NCBI RefSeq assembly: GCF_003576645.1
Contig: NC_044929.1
Location: 4,866,753-4,930,752, forward strand
Length of the DNA stretch: 64,000 nt
DNA from: Ipomoea triloba
Taxonomy: Eukaryota > Streptophyta > Magnoliopsida > Solanales > Convolvulaceae
Direction: 5' to 3'
Part shown: piece after piece, positions 27,671 through 54,500 of the stretch
Position numbering within the stretch: the first letter of the stretch is position 1
Layout: each line of letters starts with the position of its first letter
The notes under the pieces: generated by a model
The model's database searches: none
Told to the model about the DNA's origin: nothing
The model's input: the letters and a program-made list of their open reading frames with translations, nothing else
Program-made: the position numbers and the translations under genes

Positions 27671-27956
27671 CTGGTAAAGGACACAATGAAGTGTAGTTAG
27701 CGCGACGGCTAAGTAAGGAAATCCATTGTCACTCGAAAGTAAACAAAGGTTTTGAGCACAATATAATAATTAGAAAAAGATAACCGTTACCCAACGGTCG
27801 CAATCTACCTGCAAGTATTTAACAGTAAAACAGTGCAGCGCAGTATATAAGTGACATCAGCACATAATACTTCTATTACTGAAAATTTTCATTTAATTCA
27901 AGGTGGGAAACACAACACGCATTTTAAGGTTCGGGACACACGACCTTTTCATTCCC

Positions 27957-28690
27957 ACTCAATCTCTCAGCGAATAGACTTCGCTCTGCAGTATGAACAA
28001 ATCATACAAATTCTCACACTTCACTCAGCGAATAGACTTCGCTCTGCAGTATGAATAAATCATACAAAATCTCACACTTCACTCAGCGAATAGACTTCGC
28101 TCTGCAGTATGAATAAATCATACAAAATCTCACACTTCACTCAGCGAATAGACTTCGCTCTGCAGTATGAATAAATCATACAAAATCTCACACTTCACTC
28201 AGCGAATAGACTTCGCTCTGCAGTATGAATAAATCATACAAAATCTCACACTTCACTCAGCGAATAGACTTCGCTCTGCAGTATGAATAAATCATACAAA
28301 ATCTCACACTTCACTCAGCGAATAGACTTCGCTCTGCAGTATGAATAAATCATACAAAATCTCACACTTCTACAAAATCTCACACTTCACTCAGCGAATA
28401 GACTTCGCTCTGCAGTATGAATAAATCATACAAAATCTCACTTCACTCAGCGAATAGACTTCGCTCTGCAGTATGAATAACACTTCACTCAGCGAATAGA
28501 CTTCGCTCTGCAGTATGAATAAATCATACAAAATCTCACTTCACTCAGCGAATAGACTTCGCTCTGCAGTATGAATAAATCATACAAAATCTCACTTCAC
28601 TCAGCGAATAGACTTCGCTCTACAGTATGAATAAATCATACAAAATCTCACCATTCACTCAGCGAATAGACTTCGCTCTGCAGTATGAAC
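27957..28690. repeat. 58 bp minisatellite, about 13 copies
   Basis: Each unit contains AGCGAATAGACTTCGCT, in which AGCGAA and TTCGCT can pair as a 6 bp stem around a 5-base loop. Spacing is 58 bp for the first seven copies, then 76, 56, 42, 56, 56 and 58, showing indels between units. The units are near-identical, so the array is young or homogenised. Every stretch between repeated cores is also conserved, which excludes a CRISPR array. Confidence 0.93.
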
Positions 28691-30653: not shown

Positions 30654-31880
30654 GTCTCGATCACTGACAATCGATTCAGGAATGCTGTGAAGTTTGACAA
30701 TATGAGCGAAAAAGAGACCCGTAACTGTAGCCGTCGTATAGAGGTGACCCAGCAGAATGAAATGTGCATATTTCGACAAGCAATCCACGACGGATAGAAT
30801 CACTGATTTGCTATGAACTTTAGGCAGGCCCTCAATGAAGTCCAACGAGATGTCGCTCCAAATAAGCGATGGGATGGGCAGAGGCTAGAGGAGGCCTACC
30901 GGGTGGAGATTCTCCCACTTGTAGCGCTGACATGTAGGGCACTTTCAGACGAACTCGCGAACGGTACCACGCAACCTAGTCCAAAAGAATTCCTGGGAAA
31001 CGCAAAAAAACGTCTTTTAGGCTCCTTCATGCGAATTGTCGTAAAAACCTGAAATAATAATCGGGATTAGTGGGGAATCTTGAAGAATAAAGAGCTTACC
31101 TTTGTAACGGATGAGCTCGTCATCCATGGACCAGTGGGGACCTGCTAGGCCGTCCATAATTTTCTTAATCAAAACCTGAGCGGTGTCCGAATCAGCGAGT
31201 TCACGACGGATAGACTCCAAAATTGGGGATACCGAGGCGGACAGGGCCATGAGTGAAGACACCTCCTCGTCGCGTCTAGATAATGCATCAGCCACGGTGT
31301 TAAGTCAGCCCGCACGGAATTCGACGTCAAAGTCATATCCCAGGAGCTTACTAATCCAATGATGTTGGGGAGATGTGGTGAGGCGTTGCTGCAAGAGGAA
31401 CTTCAGGCTATAATGGTCGGTGTAGACTGCGAACCGATGACCCTACAGGTAGTGTCGCTAGTGTCGAATGGCTTGAGAATATGAGATAACCCAATCAATT
31501 ATTGTTCGTACGAGGCTAGCTTGTGATGGCAGATAGCGAGGCGCCGGCTAAAGAAATCCACCGTGTGGTTATCTTGGTGTAAAACTGCGCCCACGCCTAC
31601 CCCAGATGCGTCACATTCAACCACAAAGGGTTTTGAAAAATCCAGAAGTTGTAACATCGGGGCTGTGGTAAGCGCGACCTTGAGCATTTGAAAGACCGTT
31701 GTTGCCTCCTTTGTCCACAAGAAATTGTGTTTCTGAAGTAGCGATGTTAAAGGAGCAGTTATGACGCCAAAGCCCTTTATGAACTTACGATAGAAGCTGA
31801 CGAGTCCAAGAAAGCCGTGAAGACCTTTTACAGATTGGGGTTGAGGCCAATCCAACACGGTTCGGACTTTGAGGCCAAAG
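30654..31880 (-). pseudogene. Gypsy RT/RNase H and integrase remnant
   Basis: On the minus strand: the end of reverse transcriptase and RNase H (LHGFLGLVSFYRKFIKGFG, then FVVECDASGVGVGAVLHQ), the MADALSRR motif that ends RNase H, then the integrase core with MDFIEGLPKV, VVDCLSKYAHF and SIVSDRDVT, where the nested element interrupts. Stops and frameshifts separate these segments. Upstream gag and protease are missing. Confidence 0.87.
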
Positions 31881-31972
31881 CTGTTCGTCAGAACATCTGC
31901 CGGAGCTCATCCTAGTCGGCCTTCATGGCTTCGACCGATGTCTCCCTTGACGACAGGCTCCAATACCAAATT

Positions 31973-32304
31973 TTTTGTAAGCCCATAAGCCTGAAAATGC
32001 GTCACTGGGCAGTGAACGGGACTTGAGGGACGAGCCGGGGGGATGGGGGTGGGTGTTTTTCTCCCTATAGTTGCAGGTAGAATGAACAAGGCTAGGAAAC
32101 AAATAAATAAATTGAAGACTACTGGAGTTCTTCTGCCAAATGTCATGATACAAATTCAAATTCAAATTCAAATTCCAAAATTGATGTCCTAAACTTAAGC
32201 CTTCAACCCCCTTGAAAAAAGAAATGAACTAGTATAAATACTTCATGCAGTAGGTGGTTTGTTGCGTCTATGATATTTGATATGTTCTTCCAATGAATGC
32301 ATCA
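31973..32304 (-). repeat. 5' LTR of the gypsy element
   Basis: 332 bp, read on the minus strand from TGATGCATTCATTGG to the primer-binding-site-like sequence just below 31973. Compared with the other LTR it carries an extra segment near 32090-32150 and lacks another. The CAAATT word is repeated four times near 32155-32178. Confidence 0.8.
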
Positions 32305-32629
32305 TTGTGTTCCATAAATTAGGCCATCTCTATTTTGTCACATCTTTACAACAGTTTACCCAGAAAGTGGATTACAGTGGTACCATAGATACCCACATGC
32401 ATACAGGAATGAAGAAAAAAAAAACCACACTTGGATAAATATATCCATAATGTTCTTTTGTTCATGTTGGGGCAACTAGATCACATGAATAGACAATATG
32501 AACACTAAAACTTTGGTTCTTGGTAGTTCTGTTTTGGGCTGTGAAATTAGTTCATCCTCGGCATTTCATTCACACAGGTTGCAAGTGATGGAGCATACCA
32601 GAGCATAGAATACCATTGATGTTTACCAT

Positions 32630-35600
32630 TCATCTCTTATTTTTCCATCGTGAGAAACCCTTTTTTCTAGGCGCATGTCCACTGCCTCTAGCTTCATATG
32701 ACCATGAAATCTTGCTTGGAGTCACCTTACCCCAACTACTTTGAAGTTGTTCCTTTTTCGCAGATAAAGCCTCGCTGAGTTGGTCCCAAAGGTTCACTCC
32801 ATTTTCTACCAATAGAGAGACATTATTAGGTTTTAAATAACATCTCAATAGGCAAAGATGTGACCAAGGTAATGATGGAACTGAATACAATTCATACCTC
32901 TGCTGCAAGTATGCATTTGTTTTTCATGGTTTACTTCCCCATTTTCTGGAGAAAACAAGACAATATTTTAAGTTCAGAATAACTTCCATCTGAATTGCTC
33001 GCTTCCAAAAAAAAAAAAAAAAAAAAAAGAAGAAGAAAGAAAATGCAAGTACCAGGAATAGTAGGTGTTTGCTTATCACTAGAGCCACTCGATACTGTTA
33101 ATGTGTTGCTGGAAGCACCAACACCAGTCCAAACAGAAACTTCTTTTGAAGGGTTAAATGTGGTAGCTTTTACAACACGAACATCAACAAGTGATGACAA
33201 ATCTATCTGCATACCACTTATAATTCAAATTTAGAGCAGCTGCACACGGTGGAGAGAGTTTACCAAAGAAATGGAGAGAGCTTACCTCCAATGATCCATC
33301 CTCTTTATAAAGAGAACTATCAGGTTGCATTGCGCATTCGTCTTCACCCGACTTTTTGGAATAAAATGGATATCCGGCAACTGGCATCAGTGAAGCTCTA
33401 CTTGATTCAGAATTGAATGATGATACTTTGCCAACCTTCAGTAAAAGGGAATGTCAAAACTTTTTTTCATGATCCTTATCAATAACCAAAATACAAAGCA
33501 TAATGCAATGAAATACATGGTACGGGGAGAGCTCAGCAGTCCAGTTGGATGATAACTTAAGCAGCCGATATGCAATCACATCGCCTTCCTATAATAGAGA
33601 GAATAACACTTGGGATGCATAAGATAGATATTGCAAAACAAAATAGTCTTAAGCTATGTGGCTATGTGTAGTAGGTTGCATATACCAATTCCATCAAAGC
33701 AAAATATTTATTGTGGATGAAAGGCACCAATTAAATTCAGTAATATACTCAAGCTAACCTTAGGTGTATTAGAGAGGGATGGAAGTTTAGCAAAGTCAAT
33801 TGATCCATCACAATGGGCAACCTTTTCAGCACTTGACATTTCAGATGATTCTTTGTTCAACTCATTAATTTCATTTCTTTGTGAGAATGAAATTTTCTCT
33901 TTGCCCAATTTCTGGCCATTTTTCTTGTTGATGACCCCATTCCACCTGAAATTTTCCTGAAGTAAAACTTGGAACTTCATCATTCATAACTTAAGAAAAC
34001 AAGAAAGTTTTCTAACAGATCCTCCAAATAAAAAGCTGAGAATTATCATGGCATAATAAATTAGCAATTGCAATAGAGTCAATAGACTAACAGTTCTCTA
34101 TAGATTTCAACTGAGTTGGAAAGCAGTAATGCACATCCAAAAAATATAAAATTTTACTAAAAAATTAGATTACTATACCGCTTTAGCTTGATTCTGTTGT
34201 ACAGCTTCTCCTGCATCAACCAGAAAAATCTGACATGTTAGGTATTCTATAATACAGCATACCATACATGCATTATTCCAAAAGGGATCTGGTCATATTT
34301 CTGAAATAGACATACTCATGCCTCTTATAGCACAACCCCAACCTCCACGGTGAGATAGAAGATAAGAAAAATCAGGAAACAAGATTCATATAAAATTAAA
34401 ATACAGGCAATAGTCCAAAAAATCATAGGTTCTAATATAATCTACAAATATAAATATGCATTATGGATCTAGGTAGCATTTTACAACCTTAGTAATGACA
34501 TTTAAGTGGATAAGCAAACAGAGGTGAGAAAAATTCCAACACTCATTCAGTCCAAGTGTCTAATAATTGAACTTCCAGAATCCAGATTATCATTTGAACA
34601 AAGATTGATAAGTAATCAGCTGACAGCTTTAAAAAGCAGAAAAAGCCACAGCACAAAAACTAGACATCTAAGAGAGTGAAAGAGAAAATGTCTGTAAAGT
34701 GAGTGAGAAATTATAAGACCTTTCCCTGGAATCTCAGAGTGGATGTGTCCCGGAGTTAGTTCAATTGGAACAACCCCATCTTCATTATCACTATTTTGAT
34801 CAGGCTCACTACAGGAAAGATTTTTAGAATTTGTACGTTCCTGTTTGTCCATATCTTTAGTCATATCGTTGAAAAGCAATCCCTTCCAATATAGCTGCAA
34901 AAAATGATATACATGTTTGTTGCGAATTATGTGACAGGAAGAGAAGATTTACATTTTTTCAAACTCACAAGTCCCTTGGGTTGACCAGGGGTTTCTTTGA
35001 TTTCATCTCCAGTTTGTCTCAGCTTCCAATGTTTCTGGATATTCACAATATGAGCTTTAAATGACAATACAGTATCTAATAGAAACAGAAGCTTTATATA
35101 TATTACTCACATGTCCTTTTGGTTGGCTTATATCCTCTTCTCTTTTGGCCCTAGCTTGTCCCTTCTTCCACTTCTGCTGCAAATTCAGACCATAAGTTGT
35201 TAATGGTGCCTATCCATGAAAAGGGGGAACTTTAAGCAAATTTATTTTACTTACACGTCCTTTTGGTAGCCTAACTGCCTCTTCGCTTCCATCTTTGGAT
35301 TGCGTGCCCTTCAAACTGTTCTGTAAAATCAGGAATAGAAGTAGGCAATAGAGGTCAAACTACTGAAAGGAAAGTGGGTTCTCTGCATATTATACTATAT
35401 TACATACAAGTGCCTTTAATTGAGAATCTGCATTTTCCTTTAGAATTTTAGCCATTTCCCGTATGAGCCTCCTCTTTGCATATTGTCGCCTTGAGCTCCT
35501 GCTTGGCTGCTGACCAAATCAAAAATATATAGACTATCATAACTTCAAGTGAATAACGTAAAACAATAAGAAATCAGCAATTTAAAATGAGATTGAAATG

Positions 35601-37486
35601 AAATCGCATTGGTGTTTGGTACTTTCCCATCAATTATATTTCTGGGAAAATATTTCCAAGGAATGTATTTGATGAGAATAACTGTGAGAGGAAAATTAAT
35701 TAACACATTTGGTGTTACCCTGGAAACATAAGAATTAAATTAGCTAGAAAGTTAATTAAGATGTTTGGTTCACTTAAGCTTAGAAATTTTTTTTAATACT
35801 TCAAGCATAATCTAGTTTAAATTGTATAACCAAAAAGCGACTATGCAGTATGTTTCAATGAATCAACTTCAATAAAATCTTAAATTTTGATTGAGAATAC
35901 CTTTGGTATTTCTTCCGGCTTGGCTGTCACATCCACGGATTCCTTCCCATACTCTTGAATGTGATCATTTCTAAGGTAACAACAAGGAACTATTACTTAT
36001 GCCCCCATGTACTTAGATAAAACCAGATAATTTCTAGAATATATAAGCAATAAAAGCAGATAATTTCTAGTCTGAAATATCAGCAACACTGGAGGGCCAT
36101 CAAATGAAAGTGAGGAGATAGTCATGCAATAAGAGTTCTAGGTATGAGTTGCCTATTTTTCTCTGGGGTCTAAAATCAATCCAAGAATCAGATTGGGGAA
36201 AAGTTTGAAAACATTTAGCCTCAATACAAATAAAAATAAAAATAAAAATAAAAACAAATGACAGATAAACTCATAATTTAGACTATGGAGATCAAACACC
36301 ATAAAACCATAGAAGAAAGACAAGGCTATTGAGTAATAACACATACTTCTTTGTGTTGGGCTTAGTATGATTGTCTTTAGTCATTTCCACAGTTTCGTTA
36401 TTATCTTCAGCCCCATCCATCTTAGATTCAGATTTTTGTTGTTCCTTTTTATTACTTATCTTGGCTGTCCGATCTCGTTTAGATTTCTTAGTCGGCTGAC
36501 TCGGCTCTGTCTGAGCATCAATGTTGCACTCCTCTGCAACTTGAGGGCACTGTTTCTTCTTCCTGTATTCACAGAAAGTGAGTTATCCATTGGCCCATTT
36601 GAAGCTGTAACTGCAACCGCCATACAATTCTCCCACAAATTTTTTTAAAAGAGGAATCCACATATGGAGAACTTAGTTCATACTTTGTGCTATGAAGTTC
36701 CTCGGATGCCTTCCTTTTCTTGGAGACTGCAACTCCATCCAGCAAATTCTTGTGTAAATTGTAATCATCCACCTGGTCTCTCCTCTCCTCTTCAGGTTTG
36801 TCACACTCATAGCCCCCATGTTCCTTGTTAAATGCCTCATTTGCCAAAAGCAGAGCTTTGGTATTTACAGATGGTTTCTCAACACTTTGGACATTCTCCA
36901 CCAAATTAGGTGTGTTCCCGACAATAACCAATGAACCTCCCTTCTTCTTTTTCTTCTTCTTCACACTAACATAATATAAAAATCACATTAAAAGTACACA
37001 TAATTCACCAAAACATAGTACAAGAAAATTAGCTATACTCACCTGATTACATCTTTATCTTTAAAGAAACAAGTTGACTCAAAAGGTGGCAGGACAAACC
37101 CATCCATCTGCACGCAATTAAGACCAACACAAGCTCAAAATAAATCTAATCTCATAATCACCAAAGTCTAATAAATATTCCCTAACACAGACGGTTTAAA
37201 TTCCATGCTTCATCTCACTGAATCCAATAAAACCCCCTTCTTCACTCACCCAAAGCCCCATTAACCCCTTTCCAAATTCTAGCCTTTTATTTACTTTTTT
37301 TTTTCTTCTCTTCCACTCGTTTCCAGAAATGGTAAAAGTATGTGAATCGAATTAAAGCAACAAACACATAGGCATTGTATAAAGGCATACCCACTAGTCG
37401 ATCAATTACCTACATTTCCAGATTATACATGAAAGTAGTATGCATTATGCATATACATACAAATACAAATACAAACATACATAGAG

Positions 37487-37537
<51 letters not shown>

Positions 37538-37744
37538 ATTTACAGAGAGGAGGATGCCATGGGGACAGGAGTTATGGAGTTTGAAGTTGTGGAAGAGATC
37601 GGAAGAGAATTGGGAGATTATTCTGTGGTGCGTGGGTTTGAGGAGAAGCCAGCTTCTCTGGAGACCCTGTGATTTCTGGGAATCACTGAGGATGTCACCA
37701 TCGTCGAACACCACTTTGATCCTTAAACCCTCCTCGTCCTCCAT
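32630..37744 (-). CDS. Coilin (Cajal body scaffold protein), intact copy
   Basis: Seventeen exons on the minus strand: 37744-37544, 37107-37043, 36965-36684, 36562-36347, 35970-35901, 35506-35408, 35320-35255, 35173-35111, 35034-34969, 34894-34720, 34210-34179, 33956-33759, 33588-33517, 33435-33286, 33206-33053, 32945-32898 and 32805-32630. Phases join throughout into about 710 residues. The N-terminal self-association domain carries CPHGILLS then MDGFVLPPFES, the middle is lysine-rich with nuclear localisation signals, and a Tudor-like region starts with EGDVIAYRLLKLSSNW near residue 512. The C-terminus has LWDQLSEALSAKK and ISWSYEARGSG. Coilin organises Cajal bodies for snRNP maturation. 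Exons 7-9 look like tandem duplicates. Exons 6 and 8 have tandem CAGCAG acceptors. It lies head-to-head with the chimeric gene at 38741. The last few residues differ from what I remember of the family. Confidence 0.92.
37489..37536. repeat. (GA)n microsatellite at coilin intron 1 donor
   Basis: About 46 bp of GA on the plus strand (CT on the coilin sense strand) begins a few bases inside intron 1, next to the donor at 37543. Confidence 0.85.
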
Positions 37745-38740
37745 CGCGCTTGCATATCACTGATTGATTGCTAACCTCCTCCGCCTTAAACCCTGGTACC
37801 ACCTCCGACGTAAACTTGGGAATACCCTCCTCTACTTCAGTACTTCGTTACTTGGTCGACCCCACAGAGAACCCCTCTAATTGGGATGAAGATCGAACTT
37901 AAAAAAACCTTTCTTATAAAAATTAATAGATAAGTTAAAAGTCAAAAAATGTTTCGTTAGTATTATTTGAGGAAAAATAATAATATAATAAAGATTAAAG
38001 AAGAAAAATCATTAAAGAAAAGAGTCATTTTCATTTTTGGTCCTACTGTTATTGAAACATTGCCAATTTTAGTCAACTTTATTAATTTTTGTCACTTTGG
38101 GGCCAGTTTTATTTAGTCCTTGCCAGTTGCCACTTTTAATTCACCGTTAAAATTTTTAATCAAAGCATAAAAATACCAAAACTACTCCTATATTGGACAG
38201 CCATTTGACGAAAATTTTAACGGTAGACTAAAAGTGGCAAGGGCTAAATACGATTGACCGCAATGTGACAAAAATTAATAAAGTGGACTAAAATTGGCAA
38301 TGCCTCAATAACAGTATGACCAAAAATGAAAATGGCTCAAAAAAAATTACTAAAATCAAAATAAGATGAATTATTCGCTTAACTAAATAATTACTATCAA
38401 CCTTTTCTGTTTCTCGTTAGAGCCTAACTTTATTATTATGTTATATATGTTATATATTACTCAGTATATTATTATTTGTGTATAATGGGAAGAAAAAAGC
38501 AAAATTCATGATAACACTTTTTTTATGCAAATTCATGATAACTTAGGAACGAAAAAACATGATTAACTCAGTAGACGAAAAATATAAATTTTTTTAAAAT
38601 AATAATAATAATAATTAACACCTTTTATTTTCAACACCTTTTATATATAAGTGTGAGTTTTAAAAGACAGTTTCTCTTTCCTAAAAAAAAAAAAAAGAAA
38701 AGAAAAAAAATACAGTTTATCATTTCTCGGATCTTCGGAA
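37745..38740. promoter_or_regulatory. Divergent intergenic region between coilin and the eIF4B-headed chimera
   Basis: About 1 kb separates the two divergent starts and must hold both promoters. A TATATAA word at 38643-38649 in the context CTTTTATATATAAGTGTG lies about 95 bp before the chimera ATG. The same context recurs before the intact eIF4B at 51475-51483, so the core promoter is shared by descent. A fold-back element (38022-38338) occupies the middle of the region and is absent from the equivalent unit 2 position. Confidence 0.6.
38022..38338. mobile_element. Fold-back MITE with about 70 bp inverted arms
   Basis: The left arm starts GAGTCATTTTCATTTTTGG and the right arm is its near-perfect inverted complement. 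Pairing continues through CTGTTATTGA, ATTGCCAATTTTAGTC and TTTATTAATTTTTGTCAC. 317 bp, non-coding. It lies between the divergent coilin and eIF4B promoters. The flanks are A-rich, so the target duplication is uncertain. Confidence 0.8.
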
Positions 38741-41700
38741 ATGTCAAAGTCTCCGTGGGGGAACATCGGCGACTGGGCTGCTGAAGCCGAGCGAGAGGAA
38801 GCGGAGGAGCGCGAGCTCGCTGTCTCCGCCGCCGCTGCTGCAGGGGACTCTCAGAAGTACCCAAGCCTTAGGGAGGCTGCCACCCCCAAGCAGAAGAAGA
38901 AGACGAAGATGAGCTTGCAGCAGTTCACGATGCAGAGCTCGTATGGCTCAGGCCATGGCTACGGCTCCACTAGCCGCTTGACGCCGGAAGAGATGCTCCG
39001 CCTCCCTACGCCTCCCAAAGACCGGTCCGCCCCGGAAATGCAACAAGGGTTCTCTAACTATGGGGCCAGGTCACCGGGTCGGATCCGAGATCGAGACCTC
39101 GATGGCGAGGCTTCCTGGGGCGGCGATCGGAGGCAATTTGGGGGATTTGATAATGAACAACGGAAGGGCCCACCATCTAGGGCTCCAGATTTCGATCAAC
39201 CCTCCAGAGCTGACGAGGTTGATAATTGGGCTTCCGCGAAGAAACCCTTACCATCGTACAATTCTACTCCTACTCAAGCTCCTGCTCGTTCAAAGTATGG
39301 TGAGAAGGGCATAGATTGGAGGAAGATTGATTTGGTCTCAGAGCATCAATGCAATGAAAGGTTTGTATTTTCTTTTTCCATCTTGAGATTTAGAATTGCT
39401 TGACTTTAGCCTTTATGAAGATGATGCTGATAATCTATGCATAGTATTAGTGCTGTTTATTTATTTATTTTATATAGAGGGAGGGGCCTGAGAGGTAACA
39501 GTGTAGTGAAACGCAGTTAGTGATCATCTTATTAGCTCTAGCCCTGGTTTTGTGTGTCTTGATTTTGTGTATTGTATCTATTTCATGGCTGGGATTGAGA
39601 ACATAGTTGAGTTGAGCTAGTGCTTTATAGAAGCTATGAAAGAGGATATGTCACAAAGAAGGCATATTAATTTTGTCTCAGCTAAAATTATCAACTTAGC
39701 TTTGCATAACTTACAGCATCTCCAACCCAATTAACACCAAAACACCAAAATCTCCACCAAATGTTGCGTCAAAAGGAATTCTCATACCAAATTTTATTCA
39801 TCTCCAAACCATTACACCAAAGCCCCAAATGTTGTTCTACACTAATATAATTTGGTTTCTCAAATTTTAAAACTTTATTAGTTCAAATTTAATTAGTTTA
39901 ATATAAAATATAATTTGTGATGTAAATAATATTATTTTAGTAACAATACTTTTTTTTTTCATAACATTATTTTGTTGTTATGTTTTATGTATTTTAATTT
40001 TTAATTATATATATTTAATATTAGTCTTGTTTCAATCGTCTCAATGAGATATTTAAAATGATGTAATTTATTTTTAATAATACATTTAAAATTTGAAGTA
40101 TTTAACAAAATAAAAAAATAGATATAAAACGAATAAAGGATACAATTGGAATTATATAAATAAGCAAGGGCAGAAAAGTAAAATTGCATCTCCTCTCACA
40201 TTTGCCGTGCGTGAACATTACATTTCATTCCATGATAATTAGGTTTTGCAGGTTTGAACATGATGAATGTCTTTAATATGTCTTGTGAACTGATAGGTGA
40301 GGTTTGCCTTATGAATGTTTGTTGTTGTCACTTGACAGCACAACGCTTTGTCCTTTTATGTGCTTAACTGTTGACTAATTTATTCATATGGATCTCAACT
40401 AACGGTTTGGATATTAAGTTTGACTTGCTCAAATGGTTTGGATGAAATCATCCTTATAATTATAGGTATTAAATTCCTTGTTTATTCATTGGTTTATAGA
40501 TATGTTTCATTGATTGTGTCTTTTATATAGGCCAACTGATTTTATTGTCTTAAGAACAAATATAAAGTGTAAAGTGGGAAAGAAGCATGTACATTACTAT
40601 CCCCCAACTTTGGATAAAGTACTTAATGATAATAAGGCAACAGTGAAATACATACACTTCCTTTCTAGAGTCATGCATATCAAATGCAATAACAAAAGAT
40701 TAATAATTCGCTTAATACAACTTTACTATATGTTTTGGAATTACAGTAGAATCATGCTACTTGCATTTTGGTTCAGGAGTGCACTTGGCTGTGTAATTGT
40801 CATGGGGATGAGCTGTGCTATATTGTGTCATAGGCCATGAATAGAATGAAAGTAGTTTTCTTATTCTTTTCTATTATCCAGTAAGGGAAGTGGAACTATG
40901 TATGTAGTTGTGTATGTAGTGAAGCAAGAATTAGAGGTATTCTTGTCTGGTTTTTAATTGTTCATTCTTCTCCAATAGGTTGTGTGAAGGATTTTTTTTA
41001 TTTTTTATTTTTTATTTTTTATTTTTTATTTTTTATTTTGTGCCTGTATTTTTCTCTTATACAAATTAAGCCTTAGTTATATTCAACATACAATATCACA
41101 CCAGTTAGATGACTTCTACCAAGACATGATACTTGCATTTGCATATTTGTAGAACCAGTTGGCTATTTGCTTGTATGAACATTGGTGTATTATAAGTTCA
41201 TTTTATGATTTAACTATCAAAGTTCATCTCATGAGAATAAAAATAAAAGAAGAAAATGAATAAAATATCTCTATATCTGGATGTGTTTAATTGGTGTAAA
41301 ATATTTCAGACCAGAGTCAGAAGAGGAGAGGAAATTGATAGAAGAAAGGGAGGCACTGCAGAGCTCTGGTGAAGGCAAAAAAAAATGGAATAGTAAGGCA
41401 AGGGCATGTTTGCCTCCCCTTCAACCACTTTCAATCAGCAGGCCAAAGGCTGAGGAGTGGCCTAGTGCTGGGTCAGATGATCTAGGTGTGTGGCCAAACA
41501 ACCCGCCTACTCCCCGAGTACGCCTTGGGCCAATTACCATCCAGGAGACTTCGACGTTCGAGCAACCTCCTAGGGAATTTCAGTTCAAGCGAGACAAGCT
41601 TGCTTTCTTTAATAAGGAATGCTCGAAGATTGTGGGTCATATATACTTAGGGAGTGAGACCATTGCCAAGGATCGTGAGATTCTTCGTCATAATGGGATC

Positions 41701-44616
41701 ACTCATGTTTTGAATTGCGTTGGGTTTATTTGTCCGGAATACTTTAAGGGTGATCTGGTGTACAAGACACTCTGGCTACGGGACAGCCCGACTGAGGACA
41801 TCACGAGCATTCTCTATGATGTTTTCGATTACTTTGAAGATGTTCGAGAACAAGGTGGACGAGTCTTTGTTCATTGTTGTCAAGGGGTGTCCAGATCAAC
41901 CTCTTTGGTTATAGCGTATCTAATGTGGAAGAAGGAGCAGAGCTTCGAAGATGCTTTTCAGCATGTGAAAGCAACAAGAGGGGTGACAAACCCGAATATG
42001 GGTTTTGCGTGCCAACTTTTGCAGTGTCAAAAGCGGGTTCATGCTCTACCTGTAAGCCCGACTTCTGTGCTGAGGATGTATAGGATCGCACCCCACTCTC
42101 CATATGATCCCCTCCATCTTGTTCCAAAAATGTTGGGTGAACCAGGAGTTAAAGCACTTGATTCTCGCGGAGCGTTCCTTGTTCATGTTCCCTCGGCTAT
42201 ATATGTGTGGATAGGAAGGCACTGTGTTTCAGTAATGTCAGACAATGCTAGGGCAGCTGCTGATCAGGTTGTCCGGTATGAAAAAGCTCAGGGTCCAGTT
42301 CTAATCCTCAAAGAAGGTGAAGAGCCATCTGAGTTTTGGGAAGCTCTTGGCAATGAAAAGTTCTTTGTTAATAAATTGGAGATAAAAAATGAGGGAATTG
42401 TGTCTGCTAGGAATTCTATGAACGCTTCTAGCATCACTTCTAGTGTTGGTTTAAGGAAGGTGAGCGAATATGATTTAGATTTTGAAATTTTCCACAAGGC
42501 TGTTGCTGGTGGGGTTGTACCGCCATTTCCATTATCGGGGACTGGATTTGAGACTTGTCTTCCTGCTAGGGCAAATGGTTGGAACAGATTGAGGCAAAAG
42601 TTTGCCAGTGGCGTTATGAAAGAATTCATCTTGTCATCTAAAATGAGCAATAACGATGTGAAAGCAAGTCAGGGACTCGGTATGATAGATGCCTCTTTAG
42701 AAATCTCTCCCGTTGAGCCTTCATCACCTTCAAGTCCTCAGTGCGAGTCACCAGACTCGTTTTCTTCTTATGCTACTAGCAGTCCTAGTTGGCTGAAGGA
42801 TCCTTGTAAAGATACCGAGTGTGCGACTCCTGAGCCTTTACTATCACCTACACCTTCATTCAGTTCGTTAGATTCTCTTTCCTGTTTTCTTCCCCGTAAA
42901 CCAAAGTCTAGCTCCACATCCCCTTCACTTTCATCAACCTCGGACTACTCCAGTTCCTTCACTTTCTCTCCCACTTCTTCTAACTGGTCTGACTTGTCAT
43001 ACCTATCTGCACAACCTTCACCTTCTGGATTGGAGTCCAAAGATCCATATGTGTTGCATGGATCCTTAAAAGAAGACCCATGTTTACTTTGTAAACGAAC
43101 TTTGACTCAAACTGAAGAATCATTCCCAACCACTCATATGGCTAGAGTAACAAACACTTGTTCACCGTGTCGAGGGGTTTCCCCTTCCCCCTTAATAGCG
43201 GAGTGTAAAGGAAGTCACCCTCCACCGCGCATGATGTTGACTTCTATCGATGAGACTCCCCAACTTCCTTCCAATTTGGTAAGAACGTGGTCATTTTCTC
43301 GACCCGATGTAGAAGATGTTGTAATGAGGGGTGATGAGTGCAACAATTTAGAAGATGGTTCTGTTGAGTTGAGTAGCGAGGAGGCCATGGTAGACTCTGA
43401 CACGTTAGTAACTGATAGTGAATTCCATGGCAGAGTTCAAGATTCAAACGAGGGCGAGATTGTGTATGATGCCCCGGATGCCAATCACAGAGTTCAAACA
43501 ACTAACGTTGCCCTTTATGAATGGCCTTCGATGCATAAATTCGAGTTGCCTTGTGGGCCTCTTGATTCAAGGGCTGTCTATCTCATATTTGTTCCTGATG
43601 TGAGCGTCGACACCAAAAACAACAATGTTTTGTATGTTTGGATAGGGCGTGACGTGCCATGGAGGCAAAGAAACTGTCAGTCGATCAACAATGATAGCAT
43701 GTGGGATGATGGTCATATCCAGTGGGAGGCAGTTGGACACAATTTTCTTCTTGAAAAGCATCTGGTTAGATCTGTTGTACAGGTACTTTTTCCCTCCTAT
43801 TCTTATGTACTTTGTCTTCCAGCCATTGATTCTAAAGATAGGTTAAACATTAAAATAAGTAACAGTTTGTTTGTTCATATTGAGATTATTTTCTTCTTTA
43901 TACCATTTGTAAGAGGCCTTTTCTCTGGATATTTATTTTCGCCTACTAGGTCTTCCAAATTTATATCTATTCTTGAATGTTAATATGTGCATATGGGGTA
44001 TGACTTGTTCAAAGTAACAACACATATTAATGGTATTTTTAACTTAGGAAAGAGGGTCAAATAGACCATTGAACCAAAGACCAAAGTCCAATTGAGCCAC
44101 TAAACCAAAAAAGAGTTCAATTAAACAAGTCAACATTCAAAAGTCATCCAATTTTTTCATATAACCGGTTGTTCCAGTTTCATGCAAGTTAAATTTTGAA
44201 TGGTTCATGAGATTTTATGCCACCAACAATCAATAAAATAAAGAAAGTATTTTCACATCATGTGCCAACAACTCTTCTTTAACATGCATGACCTTGGAAT
44301 AACTGGTTATATGGAAAAATTAGATGACTTTTGAATGTTGAGTGGTTTAATTGAATTCATGGACAATGGGCGTGGTTGAAAGCATTTTCTGAAACTTGTT
44401 TGTAGGCTTTAGGATCTCTTCCAGGATATGAGAATGTATTTTTCGCATTGTTGTTGCATACCAACATTTCTTTTGTATTCTCTAGATTTAGTGAGTGAGC
44501 CAAATAATCAAAGCTAACTTCCAAACTTAATTGCATTGCAGATAGTGAATCAAGGCAAGGAACCTGATCATCTCCTTAAAAACCTACTGACCCTGCCTCT
44601 CTCAAGAACACACTGA
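38741..44616 (+). CDS. In-frame eIF4B-MKP1 chimeric gene
   Basis: Exons 38741-39360, 41310-43782 and 44542-44616; GT-AG introns, phases 2 and 0; predicted 1055 residues. Residues 1-229 come from eIF4B: MSKSPWGNIGDWAAEAE, the DRDLDGEASWG region, EKGIDWRKIDL, then exon 2 up to codon 229. From codon 230, at a nine-A run (41377-41385), the frame is MKP1: ARACLPPLQPLSI, a dual-specificity phosphatase domain at about 308-455 with HCCQGVSRS (catalytic Cys 396), a gelsolin-like segment at about 490-560, a calmodulin-binding-like helix WNRLRQKFASGV near 630-650, and a serine-rich tail. MKP1 proteins dephosphorylate stress MAP kinases. The eIF4B portion has only in-frame length changes. The promoter, start and first intron are eIF4B's. 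Transcription and splicing are inferred. Assembly error is the main alternative. Confidence 0.85.
39712..40218. other. Sequence unique to chimera intron 1
   Basis: The chimera's intron 1 matches eIF4B intron 1 of unit 2 on both sides of this stretch but not within it. It begins ACAGCATCTCCAACCCAATT, is AT-rich and is probably an insertion or a replacement. The unit 2 intron has different extra DNA at about 52870-53890. No coding content. Confidence 0.55.
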
Positions 44617-45056: not shown

Positions 45057-45404
45057 CATAAATTAGGCCATCCCTATTTTGTCACATCTTTATAACAGTT
45101 TTCCCAGAAAGCAGTGGATTACAGAGGTACCATAGATACCCACACATGCTACGGTACCCACACATGCATACAGGAATGGAGAAACAAAACCACACACTTG
45201 GATAAATATATATAAATATATGCATATCTATAATGTTCTTTTGTTCATGTTGGGGCAACTAGATCACATGAATACACAATACATTAAAACTTTGGTTCTG
45301 GGTAGTTGTGTTTTGGGCTGTGAAACTAGTTCATCCTCGGTCACGCAGGTTGCAAGTGATGGAGCATACCAGAGCATAGAATACCATTGGTGTTTACCAT
45401 TCAT

Positions 45405-46676
45405 CTCTTATTTTTCCATCGTGAGAAACCCTTTTTTTCTAGGCCATATGAGCATGAAATCTTGCCTGGAGTCACCTTCTTACCCCAACTACTTTGTTGA
45501 GGAAGTTGTTCCTTTTTCGCAGATAAAGCCTAGCTGAGTTGTTCCAAAAGGTTCACTCCACTTTCTAGCAATTGAGAGACATTATTAGGTTTTAAATAAC
45601 ATCTCAATAGGCAAAGATTTGACCAAGGTAATGATGGAACTGAATACAATTCATACCTCTGCTGCAAGTATGCATTTGTTTTTCATGGTTTACTTCCCCA
45701 TTTTCTGGAGAAACAAGACAATATTTTAAGTTCAGAACAACTCCCATCTTAATTGCTAACTTCCAAAAAAAAAAAAAAGCTAGTACCAGGAAAAGTAGGC
45801 GTTTGCTTATCACTAGAGCCACTTGATACTGCTAATGTGTTGCTGGAGGCACCAGCACCAGTCCAAATAGAAACTTCTTTTGAAGGGTTAAATGTGGTGG
45901 TTTTTACAACACGAACATCAACAAGTGATGACAAATCTATCTACATACCAGTTATAATTCAAATTTAGAGCAGCTGCTCACAGTGGAGAGAGTTTACCCA
46001 AGAAATGGAAAGAACTTACCTCCAATGATCCATCCTCTTTATAAAGAGAACTATCAGGTTGCATTATGCATTCGTCTTCACCTGACTTTTTGGAATAAAA
46101 TGGATATCCGGCAACTGGCATCAGTGAAGCTCTACTTGATTCAGAATTGAATGATGATACTTTGCCAACCTTCAGTAAAAGGGGATGTCAAAACTTTTCT
46201 CTCATGATCCTATCAATAACCAAAATACAAATCATAATGCAACGAAATACATGGTACGGGGAGAGCTCAGCAGTCCAGTTGGATGATAACTTAAGCAGCC
46301 GATATGCAATCACATCGCCTTCCTACAATAGAGAGAATAACAGTTGGGATGTATATGATAGATATTGCAACACAAAATAGTCTTAAGCTATGTGTAGTAG
46401 GTTGCATATACCAATTTCGTCAAAGCAAAATATTTATTGTGGATAAAAGGCAGCAATTGAATACAGTAATATACTTGAGCTAACCTTAAGTGTATCAGAG
46501 GGATGGAATTTTAGCAAAGTCAATTGATCCATCACAATGTGTAATCTTTTCAGCACTTGACATTTCAGATGATTCTTTGTTCAACTCATTAATTTCATTT
46601 CTTTGAGAAAATGAAATTTTGTCTTTGCCCAATTTCTGACCATTTTTCTTGTTGATGACCCCATTCCACCTGAAAT
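45405..46676 (-). pseudogene. Coilin, unit 2 copy (truncated pseudogene)
   Basis: Homologues of coilin exons 12 (partial) to 17 are present in order on the minus strand with their introns. The last exon has a premature TAG at 45530-45532 where unit 1 has GAG, plus a deletion further on. Exon 12 has a 2 bp loss near 46498. Homology with unit 1 stops abruptly near 46676, inside exon 12, so exons 1-11 and the promoter are absent. It cannot make coilin. Intron-by-intron similarity shows a DNA-level duplication and not a retrocopy. Confidence 0.92.
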
Positions 46677-49144
46677 CGGTACATTTACATTTTATACAGC
46701 AGTAGAAGTGTGAAAGGAAACAACCTTAATGATAGCTAGATATTAATGGCTGAAATATCTAGCCAAAATACTTTGTTTTATGATTGAATTTTAAAGTTGC
46801 TTAACAATGTCTAAGACTTATAAACTAACACTCACAGCTATCTATAATCCACTGTATGCAGATTTTGTGGGAGTTTTTTTGCAGGAATGAATCTTCTAAG
46901 GAGGAAGACCTTAGGCATCAGGAAGAGTGGAACTGCCTTATGACTCAAGGATACTGCCTTAAGGAGGAAGAAAAGGATACTGCCTACGATGAAGACCAAA
47001 CATCAATGGTACAATTTCAAAGACATTGTACGTAGTTCACAGTATATGGAACTATGTTCCAATTGAAAGTCATCATATGTATGTACCATGTAGATATGTC
47101 AAGACACTGTTTTCATTTGTTTTTAACACTCAGTCATAAAAGACACAAATATTATAATTGTCATGATAAAATTTACACTAAAAAATGCTAGGGACATGTT
47201 TAATCAATCACCGAATATGGAACCTATAAAATATATAAGTAATCAAACAAATCAATTGTAAAATCATTTACCTACGCTGATGTTCTCAGAATGGAATATG
47301 AGTTTAAAATATATAGCATGTAGCAATTATATCTAGCAAATCCAACACCTGATGATTAAAAAATGATTTATATTAGATACAATAATACTGGGGAACTAAA
47401 AGAAACATACATATAGAAGTTGCATACCTTAAATGACAGGTTGGTCATACAAGGTAAGTCATTGGAGATTAGCCACAACTTCATACATGTATGAACTCTG
47501 TGGCAAAAGTATAAATCAAAAATAGTAAGGGTAACCAAGTCTTAACCAAATTTCATACCAAGTATGTGACAGTCTGAAATATATAGATTAAAGGTACATT
47601 ATGAAGTAAGCTTAGTTAAATGTAAAGATACACGTGAGACTACAGAAAAACCAGCTAAGTAATCCTACCCCTGAGGGTAGGACGCATCTTGCGGATAGAG
47701 TAGACAACTTAATAATGAATTCTCTATGAGGCATCAGAATTTCTTATCATCATTTGCACAAACTAAAAATAAATGTTAGACAATACATGAGAACAGGTAA
47801 TGAAATAAGGAAAGTAACACATATACTATGATTTTAATCATCAAGTACTGATATTATACAACAGGATTAAAGTTTAGAAAAAACTTATGCATAAGAAATA
47901 TAACTTATGATCATGATAAATAAATTATCACTACTTAATTTGATTAATCAATATTTGCTGGGATCACAACAGCATTTATTAACATCAAAATCTTTTAGTA
48001 TTCCAAGATGAAACTAGCCACCAATGATATTAACATGTTAGGGTTCTATGTATCTAACTCAAATTCTAGAGATCGGGAGTCTTAGAATAGACTTACCTTG
48101 GATGCCCGATCCAACCTAGAGAGTGAAGTATTGTGCTACCCGAACCGATCTGCATTAGGTATTGAAAAACCAACACAGACTAAGTCGTCAAACCATAAGC
48201 TTGAGCGATTTACAAGAATCGCCTGCGGGCTGTGGGAGATGGAATAGTATTCTATCTAAAATGGTTGAGTTTCAAATACAAGGACCAGAAATCGCTAAGA
48301 AGATTGAACCTCCTGTAAATGGATCGCAAAGCAGACGGGCGTAGTACATGGTGGAGATGGAGTAAAAAGGTAGATAAAATGGTGTAGTTGCCAAAGTGAC
48401 GGAACAGAGAAATGCAATTGGAAATTGGGAGCAGATGGTGGAGTGAAGCTTCTGGAATCGGATGGAGGGATTGACAGCCTAAAATGCAGTCCACACAGCC
48501 ATAATTAAAAACTACATTTTTTTAAAACAAAAAGTATATGAAAGTATATTATTTTTGTACATAAAATATATTGCTTTATAATATATTATTTAAGGTTGTT
48601 TCATACTCAAAGTTAAGGATCGAACCCTTAATCTTTGATTAAGAAGGGATGAATCCATTTCAAAACGCCAATGCAACACGCTGCTAATTGCTGCGTGTTG
48701 CAACTTGGCAGTTTGGAGCAGATCCGCTGCTCCGAACCGCCATTAACCAAATACTGTTTTCAGCGTTTTGACCAAGGTCAAAATGCGAAAAACGGTGAAT
48801 CCGCCAAAAATTGACGGATCCGCCAAGAACCAAACGTAGTCGTAGTAAGTATGCAACTTAATTCGTACATTTACATCTTACATGCAATTCATGGAAGTTC
48901 CTACAAATTTTTTTAATGAATTCTTCATTGTAATTACTAACGTGTTGACTAATTTAATGTGCAGGTGATAACTTAATCAAATCGAGTATTGAATGTATTC
49001 TTCTAACTCAGAGATTTATTAGTCGATGTTGATGGAGTGTTCTTTTGTTGCCCAGACCTAGATGATTGCCCAGATTTTGGACCAGTAAAATTGAATGTAT
49101 TCTTCTAACTCAGCTGATTTCCTGGCTTGAATTGATTTCTTCCT

Positions 49145-51045
49145 CTAGTTTGATTTTGACTTCTTCGATTGAATTCTTTGAGAATCTTTGTGAAGTTTTT
49201 TCGTCAAAAGAACCAAGGATTCATCATCAATATCTTCGTTATCAGACTCATCCTCAAGATCGGCCGTAAAAGCGATTGATTTACCCTTTTTTCCCTTAAT
49301 TAGGGTTTTCATCAGCGAGGACTTGAAGTTCATATGTGTGTAGGCTTATCATCGGTTTTCCAACTGATTTATTTTCTCATCCTTGGTTTTCCTAGATTGA
49401 TGTTACCTTCATACAAAATGGCTTAGGAAGTGATCGAATGATCTTTTTCACCACTCATAACTCAGAGAATGGTTTTCCCAAGATTAAAGCTCTATTCATC
49501 AAATCTTGCACCCTATTATGGAAATCTGTGATTGATTCTTCTTCATTCATTCTTAGTGCTTCAAATTCAGACAACACCATCTGAAGTTTAGACTGTTTAA
49601 CATCATTTGTTCCTTATAATCTGGTTTCTAGGATGTTCCATGCTTTCTTGGCTTCTCGCACTCTAGCAACAAGGGTGAATACGAATTCATGAAGTAAGCC
49701 AACGATGGAGTTCAACGCCTTATTGTTGTAATATGATTTACTGATTTCATCACCAGTCTAGTCAATCTTTGGCTTAATGGCTATTGTTCCGTCGTCATTG
49801 TTAACCTTTGGTGGTTCCCAGTCGGTGATCAACATACGCCAAACCCTTGTTCCTTAAGCTTGCAGATAAATCTCCATTATAGATTTTCAGAACGCATAAT
49901 TGGTACCATCCAACTCATGGGGTTTGATGTTGTTATCCATCTGTGAGTCAAAGTGCCAAGAAACAAACTACACACAAACTTTGTATTACACTTATTAAAC
50001 AAGAATATCAAGAATTATAGCAAAATTTAGAATTCCCTATGGATCAAGTCACTTTTTAGACTTAAAAGCTCGGATACCAAATGAAATTTCATTATATTTA
50101 TCCTAATATTCTATATTGTTTGACTTGGTTTATGCTAATATGCTTTATCTATACAAAATTATCTTTTAAGAATCTTAGATAATATTCACTCAGAACATGC
50201 GACAAAGTATAGATATCAAATGTGGAAAGTAAACGTATAAACTAAACTGACAAACAGTATTGTTAACCCAGTTTGATACCTTAGTACCTACGTTTAGGGG
50301 ACGGCTACAGTTTGTCCAATCCACTATACTTCAACCCCTACAGTACAGAAGGTAAGAGAAACTTTCTCACCAAAGTGATCCTCAAAAGGTAACTACCCGA
50401 CTGACTTAGGCTTACAACATATTGCCAATATCGAAAATCTATGCGTCAGAAGTCCAACGAAGTCCCCTTCTTAGAGAGCTATTCTAATGCAGTCTGTCTT
50501 GATGACTCACCCTTCACTGTTTCACAGTTGCATGGCCTTCACGTCTACAAATTAAGTATCAACAATTTTGCCTTCTCAAGTTCTTTAACTTTAAATCACC
50601 AGAACTTGATTTCTTGAGAAGACAAAGTATAGTCAGAGTGTATCTTTTTTAACTAAGGGGACATGGTTATTCTTTTGACTAGAACTTCAATAATTTCATT
50701 GTGTGTAATTCTTGAACCATCTACCACCTTTAAATAATACTCTAACTTAGGTCACACGGTAATCCTTAGAGATTTGAATCCATGTAAAAAAATTACCGTG
50801 ATACCATTTAAGGTGTTCAGAAGATAGGGACTTTCTTGTAATCACACCTCTTTGACGATAACTGCTCTGTTTAGCTCAGCAAAAATAAGTCAGTGAAGCT
50901 TAATGGATATACCTCGGACGCACTGTCGTAGAGTCTGATCAATCAGTCGTCTGACAGGCTCACGACTTATTCCTAACTAATTTGTCATAATAAAACAGCC
51001 AATTACATCAGTAGAGTTTAGAACTTTAGACTTAAAACACTAACA
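49145..51045 (-). mobile_element. Truncated Ty1/copia retrotransposon with 5' LTR and gag
   Basis: On the minus strand a 964 bp LTR-like region (51045-50082; starts TGTTAGTG, ends TTTCA) is followed by TGGTATCCGAGC at about 50079-50068, a primer-binding site of initiator-Met type. A decayed gag then starts MDNNIKPHELDGTNYAF near 49940 and continues to ESDNEDIDDESLVLLTKK near 49200. Stops are scattered through gag. Protease, integrase, RT and the 3' LTR are not seen, so the element is truncated. The LTR boundary rests on its TG/CA ends and the adjacent primer site, as there is no partner LTR to compare. Confidence 0.72.
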
Positions 51046-51228
51046 AGTTAAGTAGTTATTAGTTATTTGTTTGAAATGTATTGCTTATTGTGTTAATGTT
51101 ATTGTGTATTAATGTTAATATGTTAGTGACGTTGCTGCTGAATTTTACATTTTTATCCTTTAAAACTTTTTTTTTTAATCCTAGGTGTTAGTCGCTCTAG
51201 CAAGTTTCGCAACACTGATTGGCGTTGC

Positions 51229-51440
51229 ACTTTTCGTCTTTTATTAATTTTTCTTGCTTACTTTTTGTCTCTAAGTTATACTAACGTTGCTAATTTTGTC
51301 TCTAATGTTTTATTAATAAATAAATAGATGAAAAGTACAAAACTAATGATAATTTAGAGACGAAGAATGGACATTATCAATAATATGAAGGAATTCTACA
51401 ATTATTGCATAACCATAACTTAGGGGTTAATGGTGCAATT
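51229..51440. mobile_element. MITE-like repeat upstream of intact eIF4B
   Basis: Carries CTTTTTGTCTCTAAGTTATA and ATAACTTAGGGGTTAATGG in inverted arrangement and matches the repeat family at 12655-13245 and 58760-58972. It sits within about 250 bp of the eIF4B start and could contribute to its upstream region. Confidence 0.5.
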
Positions 51441-51474
51441 TTTCAAAAGAAAAAAGAGAATAATTAACACCTTT

Positions 51475-51483
51475 TATATATAA
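51475..51483 (+). promoter_or_regulatory. TATA-like element of intact eIF4B
   Basis: TATATATAA about 57 bp before the eIF4B ATG, in the same context (AACACCTTTTATATATAAGTGTG) as the element before the chimera. Homology between the two promoters extends from about 50 bp upstream of the TATA to the start codon, interrupted in unit 1 by an A-rich insertion. Confidence 0.6.
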
Positions 51484-51539
51484 GTGTGCGTTTTAAAAGA
51501 CAGTTTCTCATTTCTGGTTTAAGATCTTGATCTTCGGAA

Positions 51540-54500
51540 ATGTCGAAATCTCCGTGGGGGAACATCGGCGACTGGGCTGCTGAAGCCGAGCGAGAGGAAG
51601 CGGAGGAGCGCGAGCGAGCTGCACAACATGCTGCCAATAAGCCAGCAGCCGCCGCCGCCGTCTCTGCTGCAGGGGACTCTCAGAACTACCCAAGCCTTAA
51701 GGAGGCTACCAGCACCAAGCAGAAGAAGAAGACAAAGATGAGCTTGCAGCAGTTCACGATGCAGAGCTCGTATGGCTCAGGCCATGGCTACGGCTCCACT
51801 AGCCGCTTGACGACGGAAGAGATGCTCCGGCTCCCTACAGGTCCCAAAGAGCGGTCCGCCGAGGAAATGCAACAAGGACGTCTGGGCGGGGGGTTCTCTA
51901 ATTATGGGGCTAGGTCTATGGGCCCTCCACCGGGTCGGATCCGAGATCGAGACCTCGATGGCGAGGCTTCCTGGGGCGCCGATCGGAGGCAATATGGAGG
52001 GGGATTCGATAATGAACAACGGAAGGGCCCACCATCTAGGGCTCCGGATTTCGATCAACCCTCCAGAGCTGACGAGGTTGATAATTGGGCTTCCGCGAAG
52101 AAACCCTTACCATCGTACAATTCTAGTCCTACTCAAGCTCCTGCTCGTTCAAAGTACGGTGCACTCGGAGGCGGCGGTGGAGCATCTAGGGCTGACGGGG
52201 ACGACAACTGGGGCGCTTCGAAGAAACCCGTTCCCATTGCTTCACCGCCCGCCAGATCTTCGACTTTTGGCTCGGGATTCAGAGACTCGAGGCCTGAACC
52301 CGAGCGCTGGTCGAGGGATGGAGTTCAGAGATTGGTTTTGGAATCACCTAAGAACGAGCAGGGAGGTGACAATGTGAAGGTGAACAAGCCTAACCCATTT
52401 GGGGCAGCAAGGCCTCGGGAGGAGGTGCTGGCGGAGAAAGGTTTAGACTGGAAAAAGATGGATATGGAGAACGAGGTGAAAGTAGGTACTAGTAGACCAA
52501 CGAGTGCGCAGTCTAGTAGGCCTGGAAGCTCGCAGTCTGGCCGATCTGAAGGATCTGCATTGCAGGGTATGGTAGAGGAGCCGGTGATGGCAAAACCAAA
52601 GGTGAATCCTTTCGGTGATGCCAAGCCAAGGGAGGTATTGCTCGAGGAGAAGGGCATAGATTGGAGGAAGATTGATTTGGTCTCAGAGCATCAATGCAAT
52701 GACAGGTTTGTATTTTTTTTTTCTTTTCATCTTGAGATTTAGAATTGTTTGGCTTTATGAAAATGATGCTGATAATCTATGCATATCATTATGAAATGCA
52801 GTTAGTGATCATTGTATTAGCTCTTGCCTGCTTTTGTGTGTCTTGATTTTGTGTATTGTATCTATTTCATGACAAAGCAGTTTGAAAAAATGGAAAATTT
52901 TATGGTCGAGGAAGCAAAATGCTAATAAAGTCATTGTAGTGGTAGTAAGCATGTTTGGAGAAATGGTCATACTGAAAGTGAAAACATGAAAAAGTTGCTA
53001 ATTAGGAGTTAGGACTTTGTGGTTAATATTTTGATGTGTTGGATGTTTGGCTTCGCATCGTGACGATGGCTAATAGAAGAAGAAGTTGGGTTCCCTGTGG
53101 TGAAGGGAAGGCAGAACAAGAGAGAAAGAAGAAGCTGGAGGAAGAAACTTCCCTTTTGATTTTATTCAAATTCTAACTTACTAAGACAATGTAATACTTC
53201 TCCATATATATATAGGAGTAACAGCTTAAGACATAAGGAAACGATATTCTAAAATATGCTTACTTAAAGTAAAAAGAGCAACGGCTAATAAAAATATAAA
53301 ATAGGAAATAAGATAACTAAATTGATTCCAAATCAAATTGAGCAGATTGGGCAGCAAGATCTGTATCTTTGACCCAAGACTGTATCATATTTGGCATAGG
53401 CTTCTGGATGTCTTGTTTAGGATTAATAATTTGGTAATGATGGATGAGAAAGGAGCATACCAAGATAGAAGTATTTTCTTGGATAGTTGGATAAACTTTG
53501 TTAAGTTAGGCACGCTAGTTCAAGGATTTTAAGTTAACATTAAAGAGAGTTGGCTGAGAAATATTATAAGAATTAATACTGATTTTTGTCACTAGATGGC
53601 ATTTTCACTTTGTGTTTGACTATTAATTTGATCAAGTTTAGCCATTCCACTTTTTAAATTGACCAAATTTAGTCCAAAATGTCCTAACCTCTAGAAGGTT
53701 GAAATTTGGTGAAATGTCCAAAAAGTGGGGGTATTTTGGATTAAATTTGGTCATTTCAAAAGACCAAGTGATTAAGTTTTGTCAAATTGATAGTGTAAGA
53801 CTAAAAGTAGAAATGTCACTATAATCGAGGGATCAAAAGTGGTATTAATTCAATAATATTTACCAGACTGCCAGATACCAATAGATTGGGATTGAGAACA
53901 TAGTTGAGTTGAGATAATGCTTTATAGGAGCTATAAAAGAAGATATGTCACAAAGAAGGCATTTTAATTTTGTCTCAGCTAAAATTATCAACTTAGTTTT
54001 GCATAAAGGAATCATACACAAAACAGTTGCAAATGTAGTACTCTTAGAGTGACAATATGTATTAATGGGTGCTACTTATTTTCTGTAGTTTTCAACATAC
54101 ATTCTTAGTTAGTGTTAGTCAGTTGTATTCCTAAGTATATGTAATTGCACTTCATTCTATGATAATTAGGTGGAGCAGGTTTGAACATGATGGATGTCTT
54201 TAATATGTCTTGTGAACTGATAGGTGAGGTTTGCCTGATGAATGTTTGTTGTAGTCAGCACAATGCTTTGTCCTTTTATGTGCTTAACTGTTGACTAATT
54301 TATGCATATGGGTCTCAACTAACGGTTTGGATATTAAGTTTGACTTGATCAAATGGTTTGGATGAAATCATCCTTATAATTCTCGGTATTAAATTCTTTG
54401 TTTATTCATTGGTTTATAGTTCTGTTTCATTGATTGTGTCTTTTATATAGGCCAACTGATTTTAGTGTCTTAAGAACAAATATAAATAGTAAAGTGGGAA

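Follow-up and report, generated by a model that had tools for sequence, protein, structure and literature searches.

In Drosophila yakuba, tandem duplications create chimeric genes with shuffled regulatory elements (PMC5460883), and in Oryza, Type I fusion genes have been described for which both parental copies can be traced, with 2 of the 35 expressed Type I fusions having both parents in the same region (PMC9199173). Here we describe a plant fusion gene in a 64,000-nucleotide stretch of Ipomoea triloba, which we refer to as the window (chromosome C14:4866753-4930752, from a sequence of 23,651,743 bases in an assembly of 461,989,178 bases). At 38741-44616 on the plus strand, an eIF4B gene contributes exon 1, intron 1 and the first 65 bases of exon 2, after which the reading frame continues unbroken as that of an MKP1-type phosphatase. 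On the comparisons presented below, we think it probable that a single tandem duplication made this fusion, that its product is a predicted active phosphatase with an eIF4B N-terminus, and that it is the likely replacement of a now broken MKP1-like gene.

The D. yakuba work concerns a population sample of flies, whereas the present fusion occurs in sequences from two plants, is apparently under constraint and has one decayed parent. For the same-region Oryza fusions it is proposed that a segmental duplication came first and that splice sites were then mutated or skipped, whereas here the frame is joined inside exons. Like plant MKP1 (PMC6255987, PMC11593807), the fusion carries a DSPc domain with the HCxxGxxR motif, an MPK1_gelsolin_C domain and a docking-like KxR motif; unlike plant MKP1, its ancestral RSxSW N-terminus is replaced by 228 eIF4B residues. 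From plant eIF4B (PF06273) it has exon 1, intron 1 and the start of exon 2, but not the C-terminal half nor 162 of the exon 1 codons, and eIF4B function is not expected of it. The mechanism is already known in kind; the novelty lies in which genes are paired and in the likely replacement of a parent that has decayed.

The same fusion protein is already present in nr as a record of I. batatas (P0001, a 9-member cluster with one name shown), named 'protein-tyrosine-phosphatase MKP1-like', i.e. for the phosphatase alone, with the fusion unmentioned. Among the literature matches listed, whose titles and abstract openings were searched, we found no description of an Ipomoea MKP1 or of an eIF4B-MKP1 fusion; a sweet potato paper names MKP1 once (PMC4157712). 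The donor genes, breakpoints, junction product and dying parent all lie within about 36 kb, and the birth and takeover of a chimeric gene can therefore be traced stepwise. The lineage is that of a staple crop, and the altered regulator belongs to a class that tunes immunity, wounding, salt and UV-B responses in other plants (PMC6255987, PMC11593807).

Structure of the fusion gene and its product

A preliminary description of this DNA had proposed a chimera of an eIF4B front joined in frame to an MKP1-type phosphatase, and both the reading of the sequence and Pfam confirm it. That description recognised the fusion itself, while the decayed parent, the intact eIF4B, the coilin copies and an origin by tandem duplication formed no part of it. 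The fusion has three exons, and its spliced frame, as read from the sequence, is open over 1055 residues. Exon 1 (38741-39360, 620 nt, i.e. 206 codons and 2 nt) ends in phase 2, and intron 1 (39361-41309, donor AG/GTTTGT, acceptor TTTCAG/AC) is eIF4B intron 1. Exon 2 (41310-43782) opens with eIF4B-derived sequence (41310-41374); the remainder (41375-43782) is derived from the MKP1-like gene and encodes a docking-like KARACLPP, the DSPc domain with HCCQGVSRS and gelsolin-like parts. It is followed by the last intron (43783-44541, GT..AG) and last exon (44542-44616, stop TGA) of the MKP1-like gene. The phase, the splice to the exon at 41310 and the last intron and exon had all been proposed before, and the splice sites and open frame bear them out. 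The join had been placed at 41376/41377; a base comparison moves it to 41374/41375, the GC before the A-run belonging to the MKP1-like copy. The identity of exon 1 as eIF4B exon 1 also stands, though not as a whole exon: relative to the intact gene, 486 bases (162 codons) are missing in one piece, along with stretches of 30, 15, 12 and 3 bases, all in frame. The C-terminal half of eIF4B is wholly missing.

In the protein, residues 1-228 come from eIF4B and residues 229-1055 from the MKP1-like phosphatase. Pfam finds eIF-4B (best stretch residues 1-177, 1.3e-62), DSPc (318-448, 4e-27) and MPK1_gelsolin_C (944-1046, 2.7e-29); the best eIF-4B stretch covers positions 1-178 of the 502 in the profile, whereas the intact copy in the window covers 1-499. 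The catalytic motif HCCQGVSRS, noted in the preliminary description, lies inside DSPc, begins at residue 395 with the catalytic cysteine at 396, and fits HCxxGxxRS. The KARACLPPLQPL stretch, the catalytic domain and the gelsolin-like parts all survive the join. Ahead of DSPc, K236 and R238 of a KxR motif are invariant in 35 aligned rows (35 of the 120 listed proteins); we take this to be a putative docking motif.

The join removes about 37 residues of the ancestral phosphatase N-terminus, including the RSxSW segment that is present in 115 of the 120 listed relatives and absent from the fusion. The phosphatase's own start is gone, and an eIF4B start stands in its place. The preliminary description suggested that the fusion could alter both the expression and the binding partners of the phosphatase; the exchanged start, the lost N-terminal motif and the constraint on the fusion copy described below would be in line with that suggestion. 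In-frame AUGs occur at residues 1, 57, 64, 85 and 100, with the next at 412, past the catalytic Cys 396. Given this AUG-free interval, an active enzyme would need a start within the eIF4B part, if AUG starts only are considered. An altered location of the fusion phosphatase is plausible by analogy, because the deletion of residues 1-133 of wheat TMKP1 shifted that protein from the nucleus to the cytoplasm (PMC6255987). An AlphaFold model of P0001, in whose alignment there were no eIF4B relatives, had a mean predicted local distance difference test score (pLDDT) of 43 and was not used.

Probable origin by tandem duplication and constraint on the copies

From left to right, the window holds an MKP1-like gene, coilin and the 5′ part of eIF4B, followed by the 3′ part of an MKP1-like gene, the 3′ part of coilin and eIF4B. 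The two parents flank the fusion head-to-tail. The breakpoint in the MKP1-like gene falls at the A-run of its start region, that in eIF4B within exon 2; each parent continues beyond its own breakpoint, and it is precisely there that the fusion connects them. At the join, eIF4B is followed through GAAG and the MKP1-like sequence from GCAAAA, and clear microhomology was not seen between them. The noncoding divergence of the two halves is similar: between the fusion and its parents, the Kimura two-parameter distance (K2P) is 0.067 for the MKP1-like last intron (597 sites), 0.062 and 0.090 for the MKP1-like 3′ flank, and 0.067 for the 3′ half of eIF4B intron 1 (1028 sites). For this last comparison a single blastn piece was used, because a global alignment of the whole intron forced unrelated insertions together and gave 0.35. 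One tandem duplication likely accounts for the order, the breakpoints and this similar divergence.

Comparative data suggest that MKP1-like, coilin and eIF4B have long lain side by side. All three are on contigs of equal size (9773032 bases) in I. nil. Among the matches listed, 20 of 72 MKP1-like contig sizes recur among the 94 for eIF4B, while 6 of the 72 and 7 of the 94 recur among the 57 for coilin. Locus tags of MKP1-like and eIF4B genes are 3-9 apart in nine pairs compared by eye, e.g. K7X08_030817/030821 in Anisodus and ACH5RR_035559/035565 in Cinchona, and adjacent tags are found in Penstemon (ACJIZ3_005200/005201, coilin and MKP1-like) and Sarracenia (U1Q18_029084/029085, coilin and eIF4B).

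The older MKP1-like copy (21890-25179, +) still has the ancestral start, MLGDEDNDKDVLS..RSASW, and I. nil (P0003) and P0002 retain this N-terminus in similar form. This copy is decayed: 8 premature stops and 3 frameshifting indels (1, 1 and 2 bases) interrupt it, its ATG is out of frame across the A-run, and its last acceptor has changed from AG to GG. Between 22015 and 24411, 7 of the 8 premature stops are of the C-to-T or G-to-A type relative to the fusion (5 are CAG to TAG), a pattern that methylation and silencing of this copy would produce.

Residue changes are very unevenly divided between the two phosphatase copies. With I. nil as outgroup, the phosphatase part of the fusion has 14 derived residues and the old copy 73, with 4 unpolarised (765 sites; binomial p 9e-11). 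The counts are 23 and 71 with P0002 (794 sites), 14 and 68 with I. nil and P0002 together (689 sites), and 9 and 54 when two Solanaceae are added (492 sites). Rough lineage ratios of nonsynonymous to synonymous divergence (dN/dS), which assume that dS is split equally, are 0.12 for the fusion and 0.60 for the old copy. The eIF4B part is less constrained, with a pairwise dN/dS of 0.52, but all 6 of its gaps have lengths divisible by three, which is true of 13 of 40 gaps in noncoding sequence. Between I. triloba and I. batatas, the whole fusion differs at 16 of 1055 residues without gaps; eIF4B differs at 16 of 510 (61 gap columns) and coilin at 34 of 618 (106 gap columns), although these two I. 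batatas records may be poorly predicted. Coilin of I. triloba and I. trifida differs at 19 of 711. These patterns suggest that the fusion is the constrained copy of the two and likely carries the role of this phosphatase.

A genome-wide six-frame search for DSPc gave 20 matches from 30 scored candidates; 8 loci were fetched and compared, the other 12 matches scoring at most 38 bits. Three of the 8 are MKP1-type. Besides the fusion and the old copy there is a gene on C3, which is about 61-62% identical across about 420 residues and has an 898-codon open frame before an untraced last exon. This paralogue is more distant and sits on a long branch. Of the remaining five, two match the I. nil MKP1-like protein at only 28-36% and three not at all. 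Among the 8 loci compared, the fusion is the only intact gene found of the MKP1-like clade. The phosphatase had previously been called MKP1, and its MKP1 type holds, while its place is in the MKP1-like clade, with the other MKP1-type gene on C3. In view of the C3 gene, the idea that this genome has no MKP1 other than the fusion was dropped.

Our proposal is that one duplication of an MKP1-like, coilin and eIF4B block would have set the 5′ part of eIF4B in frame before the 3′ part of the MKP1-like gene, the junction of the repeat being the fusion itself. The gene would be transcribed from the eIF4B promoter, spliced and translated from the eIF4B AUG, and its product would be a MAP-kinase phosphatase, predicted to be active and to act on stress MAP kinases, with an eIF4B-derived N-terminus. 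It would thereby take over the role of the broken MKP1-like gene. Most simply, the eIF4B part may be the donor of a promoter, a start codon and a tolerated N-terminal tail.

Age of the duplication and alternative explanations

Several observations weigh against this account. Just upstream of the start codon, 74 aligned sites have a K2P of 0.20, and coding dS, at 0.137 for the phosphatase part and 0.103 for the eIF4B part, exceeds the intron divergence and is less even. Equal contig sizes by themselves place genes only on the same scaffold or chromosome. The ends of the two block copies are separated by stretches (33952-38633 and 46676-51466) that share no sequence at word size 7, leaving about 4.7 kb of the mid-block, which on the left holds most of coilin, unaligned between the copies; five pieces of these middle stretches had no match in Pfam. 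It must therefore be assumed that the 5′ part of coilin was later deleted from the right copy and that other DNA was inserted there. The C3 gene, with its open frame, weakens any claim that the fusion is indispensable. The eIF4B part of the fusion changes faster than its parent, with 16 derived residues against 5 (I. nil outgroup; two other outgroups give 17 to 5 and 12 to 7). Finally, at a rate of 7e-9 a K2P of 0.067 corresponds to about 4.8 million years, above the published 3.6 million years for the I. nil split (the same source gives 2.2 for I. trifida-I. triloba; PMC6214957), which sits uneasily with a tree that places the duplication after that split.

In that tree the old copy clusters with the fusion, P0001 and P0013, apart from I. 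nil (90/92). We place the origin close to the I. nil split and probably later than it. A duplication and fusion older than the split, lost or unsampled in I. nil, is possible but doubtful. The K2P of 0.067 is higher than the published rate would predict for the split, and 4 sites unite the fusion with I. nil; against these stand the tree, 9 sites that unite the two window copies (including 2 last-exon sites, a region in which the I. nil isoform is different) and none that unite the old copy with I. nil. Furthermore, P0001 is alone in carrying both domains in Pfam among 120 listed of 889 matches. Another calibration within the genus gives older dates (PMC9434287). The fusion could instead be a duplicate that is dead or not expressed, its frame open only through youth, which would agree with the pairwise dN/dS of 0.52 in the eIF4B part. 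Yet the sister copy of the same age has accumulated 8 stops, 3 frameshifts and 73 replacements, compared with an open frame and 14 replacements in the fusion, and I. batatas has a matching 1055-residue frame, making this explanation quite improbable. A misjoining of two loci in the assembly is scarcely credible. Such errors are common in duplicated sequence, and there is an N base in the window, at position 57043, which is remote from the join. However, the I. batatas protein record, RNA-based or predicted, matches at 98% identity over 100% of the length, with 16 of 1055 residues different and no gaps, and because it shows an equal join and length an assembly error is unlikely. The join thus recurs in a related species, as does the 486-base loss from exon 1. 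A retroposed chimera was rejected, as eIF4B intron 1 and the MKP1-like last intron are both retained.

The eIF4B part could itself be at work, tethering the phosphatase to translation-initiation complexes or mRNA and thus linking the shut-off of MAP kinases to translation. Plant eIF4B binds eIF4G/eIFiso4G and PABP (PMC5790229), the N-terminal region has stayed in frame through all 6 of its gaps, and only 5 of its 228 residues differ between I. triloba and I. batatas. Set against a working eIF4B part are its faster change than intact eIF4B (16 derived residues to 5), the loss of 162 exon 1 codons in one piece and of the entire C-terminal half, and a predicted model of low confidence in this part (mean pLDDT 43). 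We consider such a tether unlikely. Slightly less likely again is the wider proposal that the phosphatase of the sweet-potato clade has been permanently rewired into the translation apparatus, the eIF4B N-terminus bringing it to initiation complexes so that stress-kinase shut-off would occur there and follow the expression of initiation, with the ancestral free-standing gene lost through takeover. A donated promoter, start codon and tolerated tail remains our preferred view of the eIF4B part.

Flanking genes and repeats

The coilin gene of the left block (32633-37744, -, exons by tblastn) is full length, and its first and last exon stretches match I. triloba coilin P0241 at 64/64 and 58/58 residues. 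The right duplicate (45404-46692, -) matches only residues 447-715 of 715. Left coilin and the fusion are head-to-head across 996 bp (37745-38740), presumably the promoter region. Within it, blastn finds a homologue before intact eIF4B for 38633-38740 only, in a short stretch at 51466-51539. Judging by gene order, it seems that the older upstream region has stayed with the fusion rather than with intact eIF4B. The interval separating coilin from the fusion also contains an inverted repeat of about 317 bases (38022-38338), similar to a miniature inverted-repeat transposable element.

Intact eIF4B (51540-57760, +, 552 residues) has exons at 51540-52705, 55267-55734 and 57736-57760, the last placed by eye. 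The 4.8 kb on its 5′ side (46676-51466) have no counterpart upstream of the fusion, and the gene seems to have lost its coilin-facing region and acquired new upstream DNA. A tRNA gene with one Rfam match follows at 58567-58639 (-).

A large insertion (25621-32307), which the flank of the fusion lacks, lies in the 3′ flank of the old MKP1-like copy. It contains minus-strand open reading frames at 25933-26397 and 31499-31906, which we take to be RNase H- and integrase-like, and a tandem repeat array with a unit of about 58 bases (27963-28717). A further MKP1-like record from I. trifida, P0013 (588 aa), lies close to the fusion in the tree; by eye, its first 60 residues resemble an out-of-frame reading of the same gene, and it is perhaps another partial duplicate.

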